Assembly: GCA_944393745.1 (NCBI GenBank)
Contig: CALYBD010000004.1
Coordinates: 1 to 64,000, forward strand
Direction: 5' to 3'
From: an uncultured Alphaproteobacteria bacterium
GTDB taxonomy: Bacteria > Pseudomonadota > Alphaproteobacteria > CAAGCB01 > CAG-977
DNA length: 64,000 bases
Made by a program: the position numbers and the translations under genes. The notes beneath the pieces are model-generated. The model worked only from the letters and a program-made list of their open reading frames with translations. It searched no databases and had not been told where the DNA came from. Each line of letters begins with the position of its first letter. Positions within the stretch are counted from its first letter, which is position 1. Positions 26,255-38,100 of the stretch are shown one piece after another.

Positions 26255-26941
26255 ATGACTTCAGACAATTACACTGATTTGGGCTTTGCCAAGCTGGATA
26301 TCAGCCGCGCCGACAGAACGGGAATGAATGAAACCGTTTTCTGCCCCGGAAAGACAAAAGAACAGTTATCTGCCATTTTAAAAACGTTTTCAGACCAAAG
26401 CAAATCCGTTTTGGGGACAAGATGCAGCGCCGAACAATTCGAATATGTTTGTCGCGAGGTATCGGATCTGAACTATGATCCCGTTTCGAAAACACTTTGG
26501 CTTCAAAAAAACACACCGCCTCGTCTAAACGGCAAAATTACCGTGTGTACCGGCGGTACGGCAGACCTTCCCGTTGCCGAAGAAGCCGCACGAACAGCCG
26601 AATTTTTCGGTGCGACGACGGAACGTTGTTTTGATATCGGCATTGCCGGCATTCACCGTTTGTTTGCAAAACTGAATGATATCCGTCAGGCTGATGTGAT
26701 CATTGCCGTTGCCGGCATGGAAGGCGCCCTGCCCGGTGTCATTGCCGGTCTGGTTGACAGCCCTGTCATCGCCGTTCCGACTTCCGTGGGCTACGGCGCC
26801 TCTTTTTCAGGTCTGTCGGCCTTATTAACCATGCTGAATTCCTGTGCGGAAGGAATCTCCGTTGTCAATATCGACAACGGATTCGGTGCCGGAGTGTTGG
26901 CCTGCAGAATTATCAGATTACTTGAAAGGAAAAGAAAATGA
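26255..26941 (+). CDS. larB: Nickel-pincer cofactor biosynthesis protein LarB
   Basis: LarB carboxylates nicotinic acid adenine dinucleotide, the first step toward the nickel-pincer nucleotide cofactor. The C-terminal half has the PurE-like core: TGGTADLPVAEEAA near 100, IAVAGMEGALPGVIAGLV near 149 and PVIAVPTSVGYGASF near 168. At 228 residues it has the usual length. AAGAGG precedes the ATG and the stop overlaps larC as ATGA. Confidence 0.93.
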   Translation: MTSDNYTDLGFAKLDISRADRTGMNETVFCPGKTKEQLSAILKTFSDQSKSVLGTRCSAEQFEYVCREVSDLNYDPVSKTLWLQKNTPPRLNGKITVCTGGTADLPVAEEAARTAEFFGATTERCFDIGIAGIHRLFAKLNDIRQADVIIAVAGMEGALPGVIAGLVDSPVIAVPTSVGYGASFSGLSALLTMLNSCAEGISVVNIDNGFGAGVLACRIIRLLERKRK

Positions 26942-28152
26942 CCTCTGTTTTATATTTGGACGGTTCCTGCGGAATCAGCGGCGACATGACCGTTGCAGCC
27001 CTGCTGGATCTGGGAGCAGATGTCACAAAACTGGATCATGTTTTAAAAAATCTTCCCGTAAAGGAATTTGACTACCGCATTTCGACAAAGCAGTCTTACG
27101 GTATTAACGGCTGTGATTTTGACGTTATCCTGCACGAACACAAACATGAACATAAACATCAACATGCCCATGAACATCATCACGAACACCGTCATTTAGA
27201 TGATATTTATACACTCATCGAACAGGCGCAGATGACCGATAAGGCAAAAGAGCTGGCCAAAAAGATTTTTTTAATCGTTGCCGAAGCGGAAAGCCTGGCT
27301 CACGGTTGTCCGGTGAACGAAGTCCACTTTCATGAAGTCGGCGCCGTTGATTCCATTGTTGATATTATTTCGGCAGCCGTGTTGTTTGATGATCTGGGCA
27401 TAACCGATTGTATTGTCACAGGGTTAAGCGAAGGCAGCGGCTTTGTCAGCTGTCAGCACGGCAAACTGCCCGTCCCTGTTCCGGCCGTATTAAATATTGC
27501 CCGACAAAGCGGTATTCCTTTGCGTCCTTCCGGCCTGACGGGAGAAATGGTAACGCCGACGGGCATTGCCATTGCTGCGGCGGTGCGCACGCGTTCGTCT
27601 TTGCCGGCACAGTACAAAGTTATCAAAACAGGCACCGGATTGGGAAAACGTGATTTCGGACAGGCAAATATGTTGCGCGCCATGATTATTGAAGAAGATC
27701 AAAATGAAGATCAGATTTATGTGGTGGAATGCAATATTGATGACGCGGCGGGGGAAGAACTGGGCTATACGATGGAAAAACTGATATCGGCCGGTGCGCG
27801 CGATGTCCATTTCATTCCGTGCTTTATGAAAAAAAACCGTCCGGGCTATATCCTGCGGGTTATCACCGGCGTCAAGGAATTAGCCGAAATTGAACGAACC
27901 GTTTTTGCATATACCTCCACAATCGGGCTGCGCAAATATCCGGTAGAACGAACCTGCATGTCCCGGGAAACAATGACCGTATCTTTGGCAGAAGCCGAGA
28001 TTAACGTCAAAAAATGCACGCTGGGCGATATTGTACGTTATTATCCCGAATATGAAAGCCTGCGAAGCGCTGCCGAAAAATCAGGAAAATCTTTGCGAAC
28101 TCTTTATGAACAGGCGGCATTGCAGGCCGGTGAAAAAGATGAACACCGCTGA
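26938..28152 (+). CDS. larC: Nickel-pincer cofactor nickel insertase LarC
   Basis: LarC inserts nickel into the pincer nucleotide in a CTP-dependent reaction. The 404-residue protein is one continuous frame, unlike the lactobacillus gene that needs a frameshift to join its two parts. Landmarks are the N-terminal GSCGISGDMTVAALLDLG, a His-rich insertion at about 66-86 that may hold nickel, HFHEVGAVDSIVDI near 126 and GLTGEMVTPTG near 199. It overlaps larB by four bases and larE by 14. Confidence 0.94.
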   Translation: MTSVLYLDGSCGISGDMTVAALLDLGADVTKLDHVLKNLPVKEFDYRISTKQSYGINGCDFDVILHEHKHEHKHQHAHEHHHEHRHLDDIYTLIEQAQMTDKAKELAKKIFLIVAEAESLAHGCPVNEVHFHEVGAVDSIVDIISAAVLFDDLGITDCIVTGLSEGSGFVSCQHGKLPVPVPAVLNIARQSGIPLRPSGLTGEMVTPTGIAIAAAVRTRSSLPAQYKVIKTGTGLGKRDFGQANMLRAMIIEEDQNEDQIYVVECNIDDAAGEELGYTMEKLISAGARDVHFIPCFMKKNRPGYILRVITGVKELAEIERTVFAYTSTIGLRKYPVERTCMSRETMTVSLAEAEINVKKCTLGDIVRYYPEYESLRSAAEKSGKSLRTLYEQAALQAGEKDEHR

Positions 28153-28948
28153 ACGCTTAAAAAATTATTTGCGTCCGCTGTGCCCCGCGGGCATTGCTCT
28201 GGCTTTTTCAGGAGGAACGGACAGTACCGTTTTATTAAAACTGCTCAGTGATCTGCACAAAGAAAAACCATTTCCTTTTGCCGCTTTTTATGCACAATCT
28301 GTTCTGCAATACAAAAAAAATTTCGCGGACGTAAAAACACTGTGCGATTCCTGCAATGCGGAATTAATTCTGATACAAACGGATCCGCTGGCGATTCCGG
28401 AAATAAAATACAATCGTTTTGATCGTTGCTATCTGTGTAAAAAAGATATTTTTTCCCGTTTAATCTCTCTTGCCGACAGCAAAGGATTAAAGAACGTCAT
28501 TGACGGAACAAACGCCGATGATTTAAACGTTTACCGCCCCGGATTAAAAGCTTTAAAAGAACTGAACGTTTTATCCCCCTTGGCGGAATTGGGAATATCA
28601 AAAAAGGACATACGCCGGACAGCCGCAGAACTCGGATTAAAAAATGCTGCCAAGCCGGCGGCTCCCTGCCTGGCCACCCGATTTGAATATAATACGCAAC
28701 TTGATCCGGAAAAAATAAACAAGATTGCCCGTGCAGAAGCTTTTTTACAGCGACTTTTCGCGCATACCGACAATATCCGTTTACGCTGTCACGGGAACAT
28801 TGCACGTATTGAAATCACACGGGATAACTTTGCTGTCGTTTTGCAGCATTCAACGGAAATAACCGAATATCTCAAAAAAACGGGGTTTTCCTATATAACG
28901 CTTGATCTGGACGGTTTCCGATCCGGCAGTATGGATATACAAAAGTAA
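28139..28948 (+). CDS. larE: Pincer cofactor sulfur transferase LarE
   Basis: LarE puts sulfur into the pincer precursor. The 269 residues carry the PP-loop SGGTDS at 24-29, RCYLCK with Cys 97 and 100, and PCLATR with Cys 177. In the best-studied LarE the Cys in the last position is consumed as sulfur donor; versions with three Cys have been linked to an iron-sulfur cluster that can act catalytically. The pattern here suits the latter, by inference. The ATG at 28139, inside larC, is chosen over an upstream ATG because residues before it do not belong to the family. Confidence 0.92.
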   Translation: MNTAERLKNYLRPLCPAGIALAFSGGTDSTVLLKLLSDLHKEKPFPFAAFYAQSVLQYKKNFADVKTLCDSCNAELILIQTDPLAIPEIKYNRFDRCYLCKKDIFSRLISLADSKGLKNVIDGTNADDLNVYRPGLKALKELNVLSPLAELGISKKDIRRTAAELGLKNAAKPAAPCLATRFEYNTQLDPEKINKIARAEAFLQRLFAHTDNIRLRCHGNIARIEITRDNFAVVLQHSTEITEYLKKTGFSYITLDLDGFRSGSMDIQK

Positions 28949-31381: not shown

Positions 31382-32731
31382 TTATCCTTGCAGACGCATA
31401 ATTGTTTTTTGACGCCCCAATACGGGCAAAAGCATTTTCAATTCGGGTCCTTGTTCCCGGCCGGTCAAAGCCAGACGAATCGGGTGGAACAAATCACGGC
31501 CTTTTCTGCCTGTTTCCGCCTTAACAACAGCCGTCCAGACTGCAAAAGTCGTTTCGTCAAAATCACCGGAAGGCAAAAGTGCCGCGGCCTGCCTGCAAAA
31601 AAGGCGATCCTGTTCATTCAACGAAAACCGTTCATCGGAAGAACAAATACGTTCCCATTCGGCAATGTCGGCTATTTGATCAATATTCGGACTGACTGCG
31701 GCCCAGAATAAAGCCGATATTTCCGGTTCGCCCCGTTCTTTTAAACGAGCATTTACTGCCGGCAACGACATGGATCGGACAACACGCGGATTCAGTTTAA
31801 ACAAATCGTCCGTATCAAAATGCGGCTGAGCCCGTCCGAAATGCGTTAAATCAAAATGATCCGCCAATTCTTCCAACGTTTGACAAACAACAACCGGATC
31901 CGATGTCCCCAGACGCGCCAACAGACAAGCAATCGTCATCGGTTCGATTCCCTGTTCGCGCAATTCCCGAGAACTCAGCGACCCCAAACGTTTTGATAAC
32001 TTGCCTTCATGCCCCGTCAATAACGGCGGGTGACCGAATTCGGGAATTTTTGCCCCCAAAGCTTCAAACATCTGGATCTGAACCGCCGTATTGGTGACAT
32101 GATCTTCTCCGCGGATAATATGCGTTATGCCGAAATCCATATCGTCAATTACGGACGGCAGCATATACGGGAAAGTTCCGTCTTCACGAACAATAATCGG
32201 GTCGCTTAAATGCGCGCCGTTATAGGAACAATGACCGCGAACCATATCGTCCCAGGACGTTTCCTTATGTTCCAGCATAAAACGATAATGCGGCCGGCGC
32301 CCTTGTGCTTCCAGTTCGTTTTTTTCCTCCGGCGACAGTTTCAAACCGGAACGATCGTAAACGGGGGGCAATCCTCTGGCCCGCTGACGGCGGCGTTTGT
32401 ATTCCAGCTCTTCGGCCGTTTCATAACACGCGTAAACCAATCCGCGCTGTTTTAATTCTTCCAGGACCTGACGGTAACGATCCAGCCGAGCAGACTGATG
32501 TTCCAACCTGTCCCAGGAAATCCCCAGCCAACGCATATCCTCGTAAACCGCCTGTTCATATTCGGGTCTGGATCGTTCCGTATCCGTATCGTCCATACGC
32601 AACACGAAACGAAACTTTTCGCCCGTACGTTTTTGAACACTGAGCGCAAACAAGTAATTTAACAACGCCGTACGCAGATTCCCGATATGCATATACCCCG
32701 TCGGGCTGGGAGCAAAACGAACACTAACCAC
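31382..32731 (-). CDS. gltX: Glutamyl-tRNA synthetase
   Basis: Class I synthetase with RFAPSPTGYMHIGNLRTA at the N-terminus (HIGH motif) and KLSKR near residue 245 as the KMSKS equivalent. The start is GTG at 32731, giving 449 residues: it lies four bases after the nadE stop with AAGG upstream, and the family begins here. A longer reading would run 62 residues into nadE out of frame and has no family support. Alphaproteobacteria often have two gltX copies, one of which may load tRNA(Gln); which one this is cannot be told. Confidence 0.95.
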   Translation of the reverse strand: MVSVRFAPSPTGYMHIGNLRTALLNYLFALSVQKRTGEKFRFVLRMDDTDTERSRPEYEQAVYEDMRWLGISWDRLEHQSARLDRYRQVLEELKQRGLVYACYETAEELEYKRRRQRARGLPPVYDRSGLKLSPEEKNELEAQGRRPHYRFMLEHKETSWDDMVRGHCSYNGAHLSDPIIVREDGTFPYMLPSVIDDMDFGITHIIRGEDHVTNTAVQIQMFEALGAKIPEFGHPPLLTGHEGKLSKRLGSLSSRELREQGIEPMTIACLLARLGTSDPVVVCQTLEELADHFDLTHFGRAQPHFDTDDLFKLNPRVVRSMSLPAVNARLKERGEPEISALFWAAVSPNIDQIADIAEWERICSSDERFSLNEQDRLFCRQAAALLPSGDFDETTFAVWTAVVKAETGRKGRDLFHPIRLALTGREQGPELKMLLPVLGRQKTIMRLQG

Positions 32732-32735
32732 GTTT

Positions 32736-34214
32736 TTAAACCTTTTTGGTAATCGGATAATGCCAGTCACCGTTAAAAGACCTGCGGGACAACTTAACGC
32801 CCAACGCCCCTTGTGCGCGTTTAAATTCGGCACGGTGCAGCAAAGAATATACTTTTTTGACAACGGCTTCGTCATATCCGGCGCTGACGACCTCTTCAAT
32901 GCCGGCATCGTTTTCAACCAACAGCTTTAAGATGCCGTCCAGCGTCTCGTACGGCGGCAAAGAATCTTCGTCTTTTTGTCCTTCACGCAGTTCGGCCGTC
33001 GGTGCTTTGGTAATCAGGCGATCCGGCATAATCCGATGAACATCGTTTTTAATCCAAGCCGGGTGATTGGCATTACGCCAGCGCGCCAAGTCATAAGCGT
33101 CCGTTTTATATAAGTCGTTAATCGGCGCAAAGCCGCCGCACGTATCGCCGTACAGGGTTGCGTATCCGACGGAAGCTTCGGATTTGTTACCCGTTGCCAA
33201 CAACAAATCGCCGAATTTGTTTGACAAAGCCATCAACAAAACGCCGCGCAGACGCGCCTGCAAATTTTCTTCCGTCGTATCGGCGGAATATCCTTTAAAC
33301 ATCGGCGTCAACAGCTTTTCAAAACAATTCACGGGATCAACAATCGGTAAAATATCGTAACGAACGCCCAAAGCCTCTGCCACGGCCCGCGCATCGTCCA
33401 GACTTTCCTTAGACGTATATTCGGACGGCATCATTACGGTACGCACCTTATCCGCCCCCAATGCGTCCACGGCAATAGCCGCACACAGGGCGCTGTCAAA
33501 ACCGCCGGACAAACCGAGAATAACCCCTTTAAAACCGTTCTTGCGCACAAAATCGCCCAACCCCATTGTCAGCGCCCGCCATGTATTTTCGGGCTCTGTC
33601 GTCCAAGGCCAGGAAATATCGTCTACACCGGCAACGCCCGTTTCCCATAACGGCAGACATTCCACAAAACCGCCGTCCAGATCCAGCATGAAAGACCCGC
33701 CCGGGAAAACAGCACCGTCATTGCCGCCCACCAGATTTGTATAAACCAACGGCAGGCGAATACGAGTCGCAAACGTTCTGGAATGTTCCAATGTTTCCGT
33801 AACGGAACCGCTGCGGAACGGCCGAGCGTCCAGGACAATCAGTTTATCCGATCCTTCACAGTTAACGGGTTCAAACCCGACGGAAACAGCGACCGTCCGC
33901 CCCGCAATCGTAAAACGATTTCCGTAATGAACGCCTTTTTCATTCAACAGCACCGGCGAAGCACCGCCCGCGCCATCGGGAATAGCCGTCAGGATTTCAC
34001 GACCGTTATGATAAACTTCAGCCAATTTTTTATGGACTTCGGCCATAAACGATTTTGAAAAAGCCAGATCACCCAACGGCCAGCCGGTCAAAGCATATGC
34101 CGGCAGAATTAATGTTTCGCCTTTGCAGTGCGGGCATTGTTCCGCCGCCCAATGGATCAGTTTCAGGTTGCCGTCCAAATCGCCCGGAATAGGATTCAAC
34201 TGTGCAATCAGCAT
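32736..34214 (-). CDS. nadE: NAD synthetase with a degenerate glutaminase domain
   Basis: The C-terminal synthetase domain is intact: LGLSGGFDSAL (PP-loop at 236-241), MMPSEYTSKES, LLATGNKSEASVGYATLYGD and a complete tail. It forms NAD from deamido-NAD, ATP and ammonia. The N-terminal domain has the nitrilase fold but not its catalytic triad: LILPAYALTGW has Ala 39 where the family has Glu; the loop carrying the catalytic Lys before the next strand is largely missing; and VAVSVGFE has Gly 113 where the nucleophilic Cys is expected. Cys 119 is nearby but off the pattern. Length is 492, about 50 short of two-domain NadE. Free ammonia may be the nitrogen source. Confidence 0.9.
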   Translation of the reverse strand: MLIAQLNPIPGDLDGNLKLIHWAAEQCPHCKGETLILPAYALTGWPLGDLAFSKSFMAEVHKKLAEVYHNGREILTAIPDGAGGASPVLLNEKGVHYGNRFTIAGRTVAVSVGFEPVNCEGSDKLIVLDARPFRSGSVTETLEHSRTFATRIRLPLVYTNLVGGNDGAVFPGGSFMLDLDGGFVECLPLWETGVAGVDDISWPWTTEPENTWRALTMGLGDFVRKNGFKGVILGLSGGFDSALCAAIAVDALGADKVRTVMMPSEYTSKESLDDARAVAEALGVRYDILPIVDPVNCFEKLLTPMFKGYSADTTEENLQARLRGVLLMALSNKFGDLLLATGNKSEASVGYATLYGDTCGGFAPINDLYKTDAYDLARWRNANHPAWIKNDVHRIMPDRLITKAPTAELREGQKDEDSLPPYETLDGILKLLVENDAGIEEVVSAGYDEAVVKKVYSLLHRAEFKRAQGALGVKLSRRSFNGDWHYPITKKV

Positions 34215-34287: not shown

Positions 34288-35202
34288 CTAACTTATTTTA
34301 ATTTCTTCAATGCGCGATTCGATTTCTTTTAACGTCGGCAGAGATTCCTGTGCGCCGATTTTCAAACAAGCCAACCCTGCCCCCGCGGCGGCATAGCGGA
34401 CGGCCTGGCGCGTATCCAGACCGTTATCCAGCATGGCGGCAAAAATCCCGACAAAAGCATCGCCTGCTCCTGTCGTGTCAACAGGGCAAACAGGCAAAGC
34501 AGAAGCTTTAAATATATCACCCCGTTGTGCACCGACGACACCGTCTGCGCCTGTTGTAATCAGGCAGACCCCGCCCGTTTTATCAGAAATAGCCGCGGCT
34601 TTTTCTTCAATTCCCAGAAACGTTTTTTCAAACAACGCGCTGTAAACGGTATCGGCTTCGATTTCGTTTAAAATCAGATAATCCGCCAACTTCAGGTCAG
34701 ATTCGGATATGGCGCGGGCCGGCGCGACATTTAAAATCGTTTTTGCCCCCGCGGCTTTGGCACGACGCAGCAGTTTAAAGTTTTCTTCGGGCGGAACCTC
34801 CATCTGCATAACCAGAATCGTTTCTTCGTTTAAAACTGTTTGTGCTACCGCATCCGCAGATACGGTTGTATTTGCACCGCTGGCGACAACAATTGAATTT
34901 TCCCCCTGTCCGTCAACCATAATCATTGCCATTCCCGTTGCCAGTTGTGAAACCTGAATTCCCGAACAGTCAATTCCCAAAGCTTTTAACGCCGTTACGG
35001 GGACTTTGGCGACTTCATCCGTTCCGACGGCACCGATCATTTTAACCAAACCGCCCGCTTTGGCGGCGGCAGCGGCCTGATTGGCTCCTTTTCCGCCGGC
35101 TTTAATCAAAGCGCCGGGCGTTAAAACGGTTTCTCCCGGCAGGGGAAAAGTCTGCACGGACAGAAAAAAATCAGCATTCAAAGATCCAAACACCAAAATC
35201 AT
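34288..35202 (-). CDS. rbsK: Ribokinase (PfkB family)
   Basis: The 304-residue sugar kinase starts MILVFGSLNADFFLSV and contains the two PfkB signatures, GGKGANQAAAAAKAG near 37-51 and DTTGAGDAFVGIFAAML near 245-261. The Asp in the second is the catalytic base. Ribokinase makes ribose 5-phosphate from ribose. No ribose transporter or regulator is adjacent, and other pentose or nucleoside substrates are possible. It is divergent from the gene at 35305. Confidence 0.88.
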   Translation of the reverse strand: MILVFGSLNADFFLSVQTFPLPGETVLTPGALIKAGGKGANQAAAAAKAGGLVKMIGAVGTDEVAKVPVTALKALGIDCSGIQVSQLATGMAMIMVDGQGENSIVVASGANTTVSADAVAQTVLNEETILVMQMEVPPEENFKLLRRAKAAGAKTILNVAPARAISESDLKLADYLILNEIEADTVYSALFEKTFLGIEEKAAAISDKTGGVCLITTGADGVVGAQRGDIFKASALPVCPVDTTGAGDAFVGIFAAMLDNGLDTRQAVRYAAAGAGLACLKIGAQESLPTLKEIESRIEEIKIS

Positions 35203-35304: not shown

Positions 35305-36234
35305 ATGACGGAAACAAAAACATTTGAAGATCAGTTTGATCACGATCCGAACGCTGTCTATACGGACGAAGAAGATATCGATTTGGGCCCGGACGATGAA
35401 CTCGCGGACGCACCGCCAAAACCGGTTACACCGAAAAGACCGGACAATCAGCTTCCGTCCGGGGGCGGCTGTCTGGGGGGATTATTTAAAATCGCCTTGT
35501 CATTGGGACTGATTGCTTTTTGTTATTTTTATATTTCCGCCCCTGAAAAATTTACGACCGTACAGCAAAAGATTACCGAACTGTTGGCCGAACGCACCGA
35601 AGAATTGCAGTCCCCTTCATCAGTAACGGACAAACCCGCCGCGGTTGATTTGCCGCAGGCGACTTCTCTGCCTCAGGCCGTACCGGGGATTATTCTGCGC
35701 GGTGTCGGAACTTTGCCGGATTTTTCGACCGCGACCAAAAACAATCCGTCTTTAAATTCCTATTTAATTACGGCCGATCAGCTTAACTTTAAAACACTTG
35801 ATACGTATCACGACCTGCTGACAAAGATGATCACGGAATGGACCGGACAGACGGATCCGAAAAAAATCGAACAGATTACCGGCCTGCCGTACAAACAATT
35901 TTTTAATCAGATTTCCGTTTCTTTGCTGTCCCAGACCGTTTTAAAACAGGCCGGACTGACACCTTCGGGCACTAACAAAATAATTGTTCAGGATCCCGTT
36001 CAGGCAATGGCTTCCGTTTATCCGCATTTAAAAGAAGCAATGGCGGAAAAACAAACCGTCCGCGACCAGTTAAAAACGCTTGAACCTGTTTCTTCATTTT
36101 TGGTCCATATCTGCCGAGACGGTTCGGAATGCCTGGCCTCATGGGATTTGTTGATTGATATGCTGGGGGCAAAACAATATGCGCCGATTTTGGAAAAAAC
36201 CCCCGAAAATATTTATCGGTCTGCCGGAGAATAA
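35305..36234 (+). CDS. Single-pass membrane protein of unknown function
   Basis: I do not recognise this 309-residue protein. An acidic, Pro-rich N-terminus (1-53) precedes a Gly-rich turn and one membrane helix (about 57-78). The following ~230 residues, probably periplasmic, include a Glu-rich coiled segment at 85-105 and a more globular region after 120 with two Cys near 270-277 (ICRDGSEC), a potential disulfide. GGGGAAA serves as ribosome site. It ends nine bases before the GT-C-like gene and likely shares its transcript. Confidence 0.75.
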   Translation: MTETKTFEDQFDHDPNAVYTDEEDIDLGPDDELADAPPKPVTPKRPDNQLPSGGGCLGGLFKIALSLGLIAFCYFYISAPEKFTTVQQKITELLAERTEELQSPSSVTDKPAAVDLPQATSLPQAVPGIILRGVGTLPDFSTATKNNPSLNSYLITADQLNFKTLDTYHDLLTKMITEWTGQTDPKKIEQITGLPYKQFFNQISVSLLSQTVLKQAGLTPSGTNKIIVQDPVQAMASVYPHLKEAMAEKQTVRDQLKTLEPVSSFLVHICRDGSECLASWDLLIDMLGAKQYAPILEKTPENIYRSAGE

Positions 36235-36243
36235 AAAACAGTC

Positions 36244-38100
36244 ATGTCTGTCAAAAACCGTCTTTTTAAATTAAAACTGAAATTAACGGATCTGAAGTTA
36301 AAGGCAAAACAGGCAGGACCGACATTTGTTTCCGGCCTCAGATCCGTTCATTCCGGATCCTTCAAAGACTTATTGCGTCGCCTGATTTTCGGCACTCAAT
36401 CCTTAATTTTTCAGATACCCGGCAATTTAAAAGAATGGAATGCCAAAACAACAATCGGAAAAATCCGGTATGTTTTATTGTTTTTATTTCTATGCCTTGT
36501 TTTCGGCATAGCTGGATTATCTTATGCTTTTACGGCAAATGACGCGTTTATTTCCTTTCGTTACGTATCGAATGCCGTCAGAGGCTGGGGCTACACGTTT
36601 AATCCGCCGCCGTTTGAACCGATCAGCGGATTCAGCAGCTTTTTATGGCTAAGCGTTCTGCACGGCCTGTGGAACGCGGGAATACAACCACCGCAAAGCG
36701 CGCATTTTGCCACATATTTATTTTCCCTGGGACAGGTTATGCTGTGTTTTTTCTTTATCCGCCGTATGCATATTCAGCCGAAAATACAGCAAAAAAGCCT
36801 GCTTTTATTCTTTGCTTTATGCCTGCTTTTATTGTCAAACAGAACATTTTTGGCTTTTATTACGTCCGGGACGGAAGCGGCTTTGTTCAATTTTCTGGTT
36901 TTATGGTGGACGTATGAAGCAACGTCAGACAAAACAAGGAATCCGATTTATCTGTCCGTTGCCGCCGTTTTATTGGCATTATGCCGGTTTGAAGGAGGTC
37001 TTTTTATCCCGGCATCGGCAGTTTTTTTAATTTTTTTCATTTTTCAGGGGCATTCAAAAATAAAAAGCATCATTGCTTTTTTTCTGCTGGGATCGGTTTG
37101 GTTTTATTACCGCTGGTTGTTTCAGACTTACGGCAGTTATGTGCCCAATTTTATTTCTGTTTTTTATAATCAGCCGTTTCCGGATTTCGGGCGGGATTAT
37201 ATCTTGTCGTTTGTTTTAGAGTATGCGCTGTATTATTGGCTGTTTTTCTTTTTGATATGGGCTTTATTTAAATTTGTCGTCAAACGGCAGAGCGGATTTG
37301 GCGTTCTGATTTTACTGATGCTGACATTTTTGTCATACATCGGATTTTACCTGTTTGTTATGGGCGGTGATATTTTGGAATATCGTCCGCTGAGTTTTTT
37401 TATTCCGCTGTGTACTTTGGCCGGAATAAAAATGATTTCTGAAAATGTTGTCAGTTCAATACGTTCCGTACTGGTGCTTCTTTTGATCTATGCTCTGATC
37501 GCATCAGCCATACCCGGAACGCACCGATCTTTGACAAAAGATCTGATGACTCGCAAAGAAACGGAATTTTTATACCGCTCCGTTTCCCAAAAAACAGGCT
37601 GGTTCGGATTTTTTACGCAAAAATGGGACGCTGCCCAGAAAAATCTGATTTATCAAGGGGTCGGACTGCGCCATCAGGAACATAAAATCCTGACCGAAGA
37701 ATTATTAAAAACTTTTCCGTCCCGCGAAGAAGGCAGCCGGATAAAAAAATCGGACTATCGTTTATTTGCCTGGGATTTTGTCGGCGTTGCCGGCTGGGTT
37801 TTACCCGAGGTTATTATTATTGATCTGTCCGGACAGAACAACATGATTGTCGCCAAATCGGAATTAAAAAACAAAAAACATCGTCTGTTTGGTCATGAAC
37901 GTGCCGTTCCTGCCGGCTATGTTCAATGTTTTAACGGCGGCAACAATGTGTATATCGAACCTTTTTCCGGCAAAAAGAATTTGCGGTTGTTGCGTTCGGC
38001 TCCTTTAAACGACGGTCAGATCAAAGGCTGTGAAAATTTCTGGAAATCACAGATCGGTGCAGCAAAAGCAAGATCATTGCGGCAAAGAAGATCTTTCTGA
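36244..38100 (+). CDS. Polytopic membrane protein, probable GT-C glycosyltransferase
   Basis: This 618-residue protein has about ten or more membrane helices after a basic N-terminal segment of ~75 residues. Near residue 97 it has NDAFISFRYVSNAVRGWGY then FNPPPFEPISGFSSFLW. That is the pattern of a lipid-linked-sugar glycosyltransferase group (AftB/ZomB-like) with an acidic residue pair in the first periplasmic loop, although here the Asp-Asp is Asn-Asp. The C-terminal 180 residues are periplasmic. It may glycosylate an envelope component using a donor made by a GT2 enzyme; acceptor unknown. Its stop is one base from the convergent DAHP synthase stop. Confidence 0.7.
   Translation: MSVKNRLFKLKLKLTDLKLKAKQAGPTFVSGLRSVHSGSFKDLLRRLIFGTQSLIFQIPGNLKEWNAKTTIGKIRYVLLFLFLCLVFGIAGLSYAFTANDAFISFRYVSNAVRGWGYTFNPPPFEPISGFSSFLWLSVLHGLWNAGIQPPQSAHFATYLFSLGQVMLCFFFIRRMHIQPKIQQKSLLLFFALCLLLLSNRTFLAFITSGTEAALFNFLVLWWTYEATSDKTRNPIYLSVAAVLLALCRFEGGLFIPASAVFLIFFIFQGHSKIKSIIAFFLLGSVWFYYRWLFQTYGSYVPNFISVFYNQPFPDFGRDYILSFVLEYALYYWLFFFLIWALFKFVVKRQSGFGVLILLMLTFLSYIGFYLFVMGGDILEYRPLSFFIPLCTLAGIKMISENVVSSIRSVLVLLLIYALIASAIPGTHRSLTKDLMTRKETEFLYRSVSQKTGWFGFFTQKWDAAQKNLIYQGVGLRHQEHKILTEELLKTFPSREEGSRIKKSDYRLFAWDFVGVAGWVLPEVIIIDLSGQNNMIVAKSELKNKKHRLFGHERAVPAGYVQCFNGGNNVYIEPFSGKKNLRLLRSAPLNDGQIKGCENFWKSQIGAAKARSLRQRRSF

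Follow-up and report, generated by a model that had tools for sequence, protein, structure and literature searches.

In the evolutionary scheme set out in one study (PMC3376133), NAD synthetases first worked with ammonia and came to use glutamine once a nitrilase domain had been recruited. The YRE loop couples the two active sites of glutamine-type NadE (PMC6946656), and an extended C-terminal loop touching the glutaminase domain is given as a NadE-Gln signature in the first study (PMC3376133). Two-domain enzymes of the glutamine type also accept free ammonia, according to two reports (PMC6946656, PMC3376133). A NadE carrying a pseudo-glutaminase was found in none of the open-access literature sampled, an incomplete sample that includes the accessible part of PMC3376133.

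The stretch of DNA analysed here, 64,000 nucleotides long and called the window below, encodes on its minus strand a 492-aa two-domain NAD+ synthetase (nadE, 32736..34214, stop codon 32736-32738) recognized by Pfam and NCBIfam profiles. Residues 1-206 (33597..34214, minus strand) make up a degenerate glutaminase domain of the nitrilase fold, supported by CN_hydrolase, hhalign and AF2, and residues 207-492 (32739..33596, minus strand) contain the linker and the synthetase domain with its SGGFDS P-loop and TAELR-Q-DEDSLP loop. The first-pass annotation had described a two-domain NadE with a lost glutaminase triad; this description is borne out, with strand and coordinates exact. The Pfam NAD_synthase profile matches residues 212-468 (E = 4.2e-73), and the best PDB matches, by sequence and by fold, are 4F4H and 5KHA, both of them dimeric NadEs that depend on glutamine. 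The N-terminal half scores 18-22 bits against CN_hydrolase (21.9 for residues 1-206), below the cut-off of 23.2. Despite the triad loss, the protein passes the NCBIfam NAD+ synthase equivalog PRK13981 (512 bits versus a cut-off of 479), and pipelines label such proteins 'glutamine-dependent'. A PF02540 search identified a single NadE in the window's genome; a second match was rejected as another NadE, as it is MnmA.

The glutaminase domain of the window's NadE has lost its catalytic residues. The catalytic Glu position is taken by Ala39 (codon 34098..34100, minus strand) in the motif PAYALTGWP, which corresponds to xPELxxxGYP in ordinary alphaproteobacterial NadEs. Glu occurs at this position in essentially all normal NadEs, and the Ala read there by the first-pass annotation is invariant in 12/12 genomes of the order. 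The block K..LPNYGVFDExR, which holds the Lys-bearing loop and the YRE loop, is missing at the junction formed by residues ~91-100 (33915..33944, minus strand), and about 27 residues of gaps are needed there in the profile-profile alignment, as the proposed deletion of the Lys loop predicts. The catalytic Cys aligns with Gly113 (codon 33876..33878, minus strand) in an hhalign register that is ungapped from Gly105, obtained by comparing profiles of 12 family members and 95 ordinary NadE glutaminase domains (probability 99.9%), and the original Cys-to-Gly assignment therefore holds. Position 113 is Gly in 11 of the 12 genomes and Ser in the other, never Cys. Residue 113 stands immediately after the strand formed by residues 106-112 in both AF2 models, full-length and isolated domain; the nucleophile of nitrilases sits right after such a strand. 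A MAFFT alignment places a gap opposite the catalytic Cys. Ser111, chosen for the Cys position in a first alignment by eye, was rejected because the hhalign register runs without gaps to Gly113.

The losses are concentrated in the N-terminal domain. Among signature columns, defined as at least 93% conserved in ordinary NadEs, the window's NadE keeps 17/41 in the glutaminase domain and 81/88 in the synthetase domain. Besides the E, K and C of the triad, the lost glutaminase columns include conserved residues around the pocket, namely the N of YNA, the S of NxSPF with the K and R that follow, and the E and W of CEDxW, and the kept ones fall in the LxGYPxEDL and NxxGGxDxxVFxGxS segments. The earlier statement that the synthetase domain is fully conserved is right for most columns and slightly too strong, as the C-terminal Arg-Arg of GRDRRYPITN is replaced; the tail itself is present and reads NGDWHYPITKK. 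Of the features of NadE-Gln, the protein thus has the SGGxDS synthetase domain and, by homology and fold only, the nitrilase-fold domain, and it has neither the Glu-Lys-Cys triad nor the YRE loop.

A search of related genomes for the same losses found them throughout the order (12/12 genomes, representing one family and three genera), with a NadE length of 492-493 aa. The named records of this order are MAGs of Alphaproteobacteria; several come from rumen and horse faeces. Strong purifying selection acts on the pseudo-glutaminase domain: its dN/dS is 0.014-0.15 in computable pairs and mostly 0.02-0.1, with synonymous sites near saturation and low dN, and in most pairs it does not exceed the dN/dS of the synthetase domain. 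In control pairs drawn from ordinary NadEs, identity is 5-15 points lower in the glutaminase domain than in the synthetase domain, whereas in the 80-90% identity class of the order's NadEs it is 3 points higher in the pseudo-glutaminase. Some deeper pairs within the family show the opposite trend, so our claim is limited to constraint that has not been relaxed. The alignment of the 12 genomes also contains new invariant motifs in this domain, such as TAIPDGAGG and FEPV.

The isolated pseudo-glutaminase is modelled by AF2 with moderate confidence (pLDDT 70.6, pTM 0.74) as a NadE-type nitrilase fold, with a TM score of 0.70-0.72 to the glutaminase half of 4F4H (0.72 for chain A); free-standing nitrilases match it too. 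The full-length model has a pTM of 0.55 with low confidence in domain packing, and any claim about the domain interface therefore rests on sequence. Fixation of the losses in all 12 genomes, purifying selection and the modelled fold together support the earlier proposal that the domain is kept in frame for a structural or regulatory role.

The gene order around nadE points to an ancestral enzyme that was altered in place. The gene gltX (31382..32731, minus strand) lies 4 bp downstream of nadE, and the nadE-gltX(-cysS) order is common to many ordinary Alphaproteobacteria, which argues that an ancestral two-domain glutamine-dependent nadE was modified at its own locus. A PfkB-family sugar kinase gene (34288..35202, minus strand) lies upstream and is given as context only. 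Beyond it, on the plus strand, stand two adjoining genes for proteins without a Pfam match: a fast-evolving protein of 309 aa (35305-36234) with 26-63% identity in relatives, and a protein of 618 aa (36244-38100) with apparently many membrane segments. About 5 kb from nadE, an operon of larB (AIRC-type), larC and larE for the nickel-pincer nucleotide cofactor occupies 26255-28948 on the plus strand. LarB starts from nicotinic acid adenine dinucleotide (NaAD), which is also the substrate of NadE, so the window holds two NaAD users near each other.

The loss is specific to NadE, as other glutaminases of the genome are intact. The catalytic Cys is retained in PyrG (GICLG), HisH (GICVG) and GlmS (MCGIVG; encoded within the window), and glutamine is thus used elsewhere in the genome. 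Profile searches family by family found no match to CarA, GuaA or TrpG in the window's genome. NadD was found in 12/12 genomes of the order, and the NaAD route therefore exists; NadA is absent from all 12. Nicotinate phosphoribosyltransferase (TIGR01513) has no match in the window's genus and weak matches in three genomes outside it. The lack of NadA and of a clear PncB, together with PyrG and HisH as the only class I GATases, suggests that the organism behind the window depends on nucleotide, tryptophan and NAD precursors.

The pseudo-glutaminase NadE stands alone in 8/12 genomes of the order, the window's included, which implies that the enzyme works. The other four carry a further NadE. Two of them have an extra two-domain NadE of the 675-aa type (L033 in G002, L034 in G011) and one has an extra two-domain NadE of 634 aa (L035 in G006), all with the triad intact and all apparently acquired. 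The fourth (G009) has a 257-aa single-domain NadE (L036) beside nadD and a pncB-like gene, and no high-scoring vertical nadD. In its own two-domain NadE (L014), synthetase motifs have gone as well (TEEN to MQAN, AELR..DEDSLP to PEWH..DFGTLP), which is what a takeover by the cassette would lead one to expect. This suggests that the pncB-like/nadD/nadE cassette replaced the function of the two-domain enzyme in G009.

Taken together, we consider, at a probability of about 0.82, that the window's NadE is an NAD+ synthetase whose glutaminase is dead, that it depends on ammonia and that its pseudo-glutaminase is retained as a structural element. The lack of NadA throughout the order and of a TIGR01513 match in the window's genus, which bears on the supply of NaMN, weighs against this reading. 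The synthetase domain would adenylate NaAD with ATP, and the adenylated NaAD would then be amidated with free cytoplasmic NH3. The N-terminal domain would be unable to bind or hydrolyse glutamine and would be kept as a structural part that packs on the synthetase domain, on the dimer, or on both; it may also preserve a path by which NH3 enters, or a surface for regulation. The enzyme would be two-domain and probably dimeric. The residue losses and their fixation in the order, the purifying selection, the retained fold, the synteny and the absence of another nitrilase glutaminase are results of the analysis; loss of glutaminase activity, ammonia as the donor and the structural role of the domain are predictions. 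The genomes of the order come from rumen and gut, and rumen bacteria are described as preferring ammonium to other sources of nitrogen (PMC5552732).

The alternative that deserves most attention is that the pseudo-domain is mainly regulatory, binding a partner such as PII (GlnB) or a metabolite that controls the synthetase, which we regard as possible and clearly short of probable. PII regulates the dimeric NadE2-Gln of Azospirillum, Herbaspirillum and Synechocystis, according to PMC7196632, and a single PII gene is present in the window's genome, immediately ahead of glnA. The conservation of the domain, with its newly invariant motifs, is also unusual for a dead domain. However, the passages of that report that were consulted do not assign the PII-binding face to the glutaminase domain, glnB and nadE are unlinked in the window's genome, and conservation alone cannot tell structure from regulation. 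Decay, by contrast, would make the domain a remnant without a present role on the way to a single-domain NadE. Its catalytic segments are indeed gone, and another alphaproteobacterium has a domain reduced much further (L147, see below), but purifying selection is strong, conservation is equal to or above that of the synthetase domain, and in-frame decay is not seen in any of the 12 genomes, where length is constant; we find a decaying remnant very doubtful.

The source of ammonia raises two further readings. The first-pass annotation had offered free ammonia or an outside glutaminase, and the ammonia half fares better. A glutaminase subunit feeding NadE in trans, comparable to the two-subunit NadE of Thermus, has precedent in the two-subunit systems described in PMC3376133, and a non-homologous partner glutaminase is conceivable. 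Lnt, however, is the sole other CN_hydrolase protein in the window's genome, which disfavours a separate nitrilase-type glutaminase subunit such as those of two-subunit NadE (types C/R); the class I GATases found are PyrG and HisH only, the neighbours of nadE are gltX and the PfkB kinase, and the site-coupling Lys/YRE loop is deleted, so that supply in trans appears very unlikely. It is still less credible that a reorganised site keeps the glutaminase active, with Cys119 (codon 33858..33860, minus strand) as one conceivable nucleophile, as the first-pass annotation had allowed. Most of the 12 genomes have Cys119, but the residue is Val in one (L011) and is aligned by hhalign beyond the nucleophile elbow, six residues past Gly113, and we rejected it. 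The Glu and Lys are gone as well, no invariant Cys/Glu/Lys set lies near the pocket, and other conserved residues of the pocket region have been lost too. An assembly or frameshift artefact is hardly worth entertaining: every genome of the order is a metagenome assembly, but identical residues and length recur in 12 species-level genomes whose records come from several independent projects.

The loss of the triad is rare. Our survey took in ~80 alphaproteobacterial families and a sampling of Coriobacteriia; of its 151 distinct NadE ORFs, 132 keep E/K/C. Those that do not are members of the window's family, proteins that are truncated or have a single domain, and a few newly noticed losses. Elsewhere in Alphaproteobacteria, every family whose full-length NadE could be read retains E/K/C, with one exception. 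A profile of the pseudo-domain run against 385 genomes recovered the family members at E<=1e-118 and its next best match at 6e-15; no intermediate sister lineage was found in the class by this search, and the readable next-best NadEs are all ordinary.

Comparable losses appear in Coriobacteriia. Two Coriobacteriales NadEs (L050, 3989-5758; L051, 3989-5812), from a termite-gut habitat as judged by their isolate codes, carry PAYALTG with Glu replaced by Ala and have no CEDxW. A third coriobacterial protein (L085) has a degenerate glutaminase domain with the same Glu-to-Ala change and no CEDxW, and its genome has a second NadE. A fourth (L086, from G455) keeps Glu and Lys and has Gly in place of Cys (IGEDI) with an altered YRE loop, and it resembles a first step towards the same loss. 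In another alphaproteobacterial family, a 432-aa NadE (L147, 619-1917 in G080) lacks, through deletion, the greater part of the central glutaminase domain. The synthetase domains of the degenerate coriobacterial NadEs are 0.48-0.65 identical to those of ordinary coriobacterial NadEs versus 0.44-0.49 to the window's family, and the coriobacterial losses therefore look separate. AU tests on a quick tree of the short synthetase domain did not reject a clade of the window's family plus the degenerate Coriobacteriia (p 0.37), nor one of the window's family plus L147 (p 0.90). Independence of the coriobacterial losses is therefore claimed from identity and synteny only, with L147 excepted.

A wider reading is possible, though clearly less likely than not. 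The dead domain would now serve as a pseudoenzyme dedicated to regulation or partner binding, by which an ammonia-dependent NadE is tuned, and a return from glutamine to ammonia without loss of the domain would have occurred repeatedly in bacteria of the ammonia-rich gut, namely in this order, in several Coriobacteriia lineages including one with loss of Cys only, and in one distant alphaproteobacterium. As for the main reading, the window's family would offer a clear case of the reverse evolutionary step, with the recruited domain kept and the change fixed across a whole order, and with apparent parallels in another phylum, among which L086 (Cys to Gly only) is an intermediate. It makes testable in vivo a long-debated matter, whether free ammonia suffices as the physiological donor for a two-domain NadE, and also what the synthetase gains from a glutaminase domain other than ammonia.

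Compared with known systems, the window's NadE is closest to the dimeric glutamine-dependent NadEs (type 2/type F; Burkholderia thailandensis 4F4H, Acinetobacter baumannii 5KHA, Azospirillum NadE2), with which it has the two-domain architecture and the synthetase domain in common, and within Alphaproteobacteria it shares the nadE-gltX synteny with glutamine-type NadEs. It differs from them in lacking the triad, the YRE loop, the glutamine-pocket residues and the C-terminal Arg-Arg, and it is ~40-60 residues shorter. With the single-domain NH3-dependent NadEs (E. coli, B. subtilis, H. pylori 1XNG) it shares the synthetase fold (TM ~0.85, normalised to 1XNG chain A) and a predicted dependence on ammonia, whereas those enzymes have no glutaminase domain and the window's NadE keeps a present and strongly conserved one and groups by sequence with the two-domain enzymes. 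The degenerate coriobacterial NadEs (L050, L051, L085, L086) resemble it in being two-domain proteins with lost triad residues; L050 and L051 even have the same PAYALTG, but with long interdomain linkers and a synthetase domain that is 0.48-0.53 identical to ordinary Coriobacteriia NadE versus 0.44-0.46 to the window's family. Mammalian carbamoyl phosphate synthetase 1 (CPS1) takes ammonia and keeps an inactive ancestral glutaminase-like domain with Ser in place of Cys (PMC4655335). CPS1 combines a class I GATase domain with an ATP-grasp synthetase and is not homologous to the window's NadE, and the evolutionary pattern alone is common to both.
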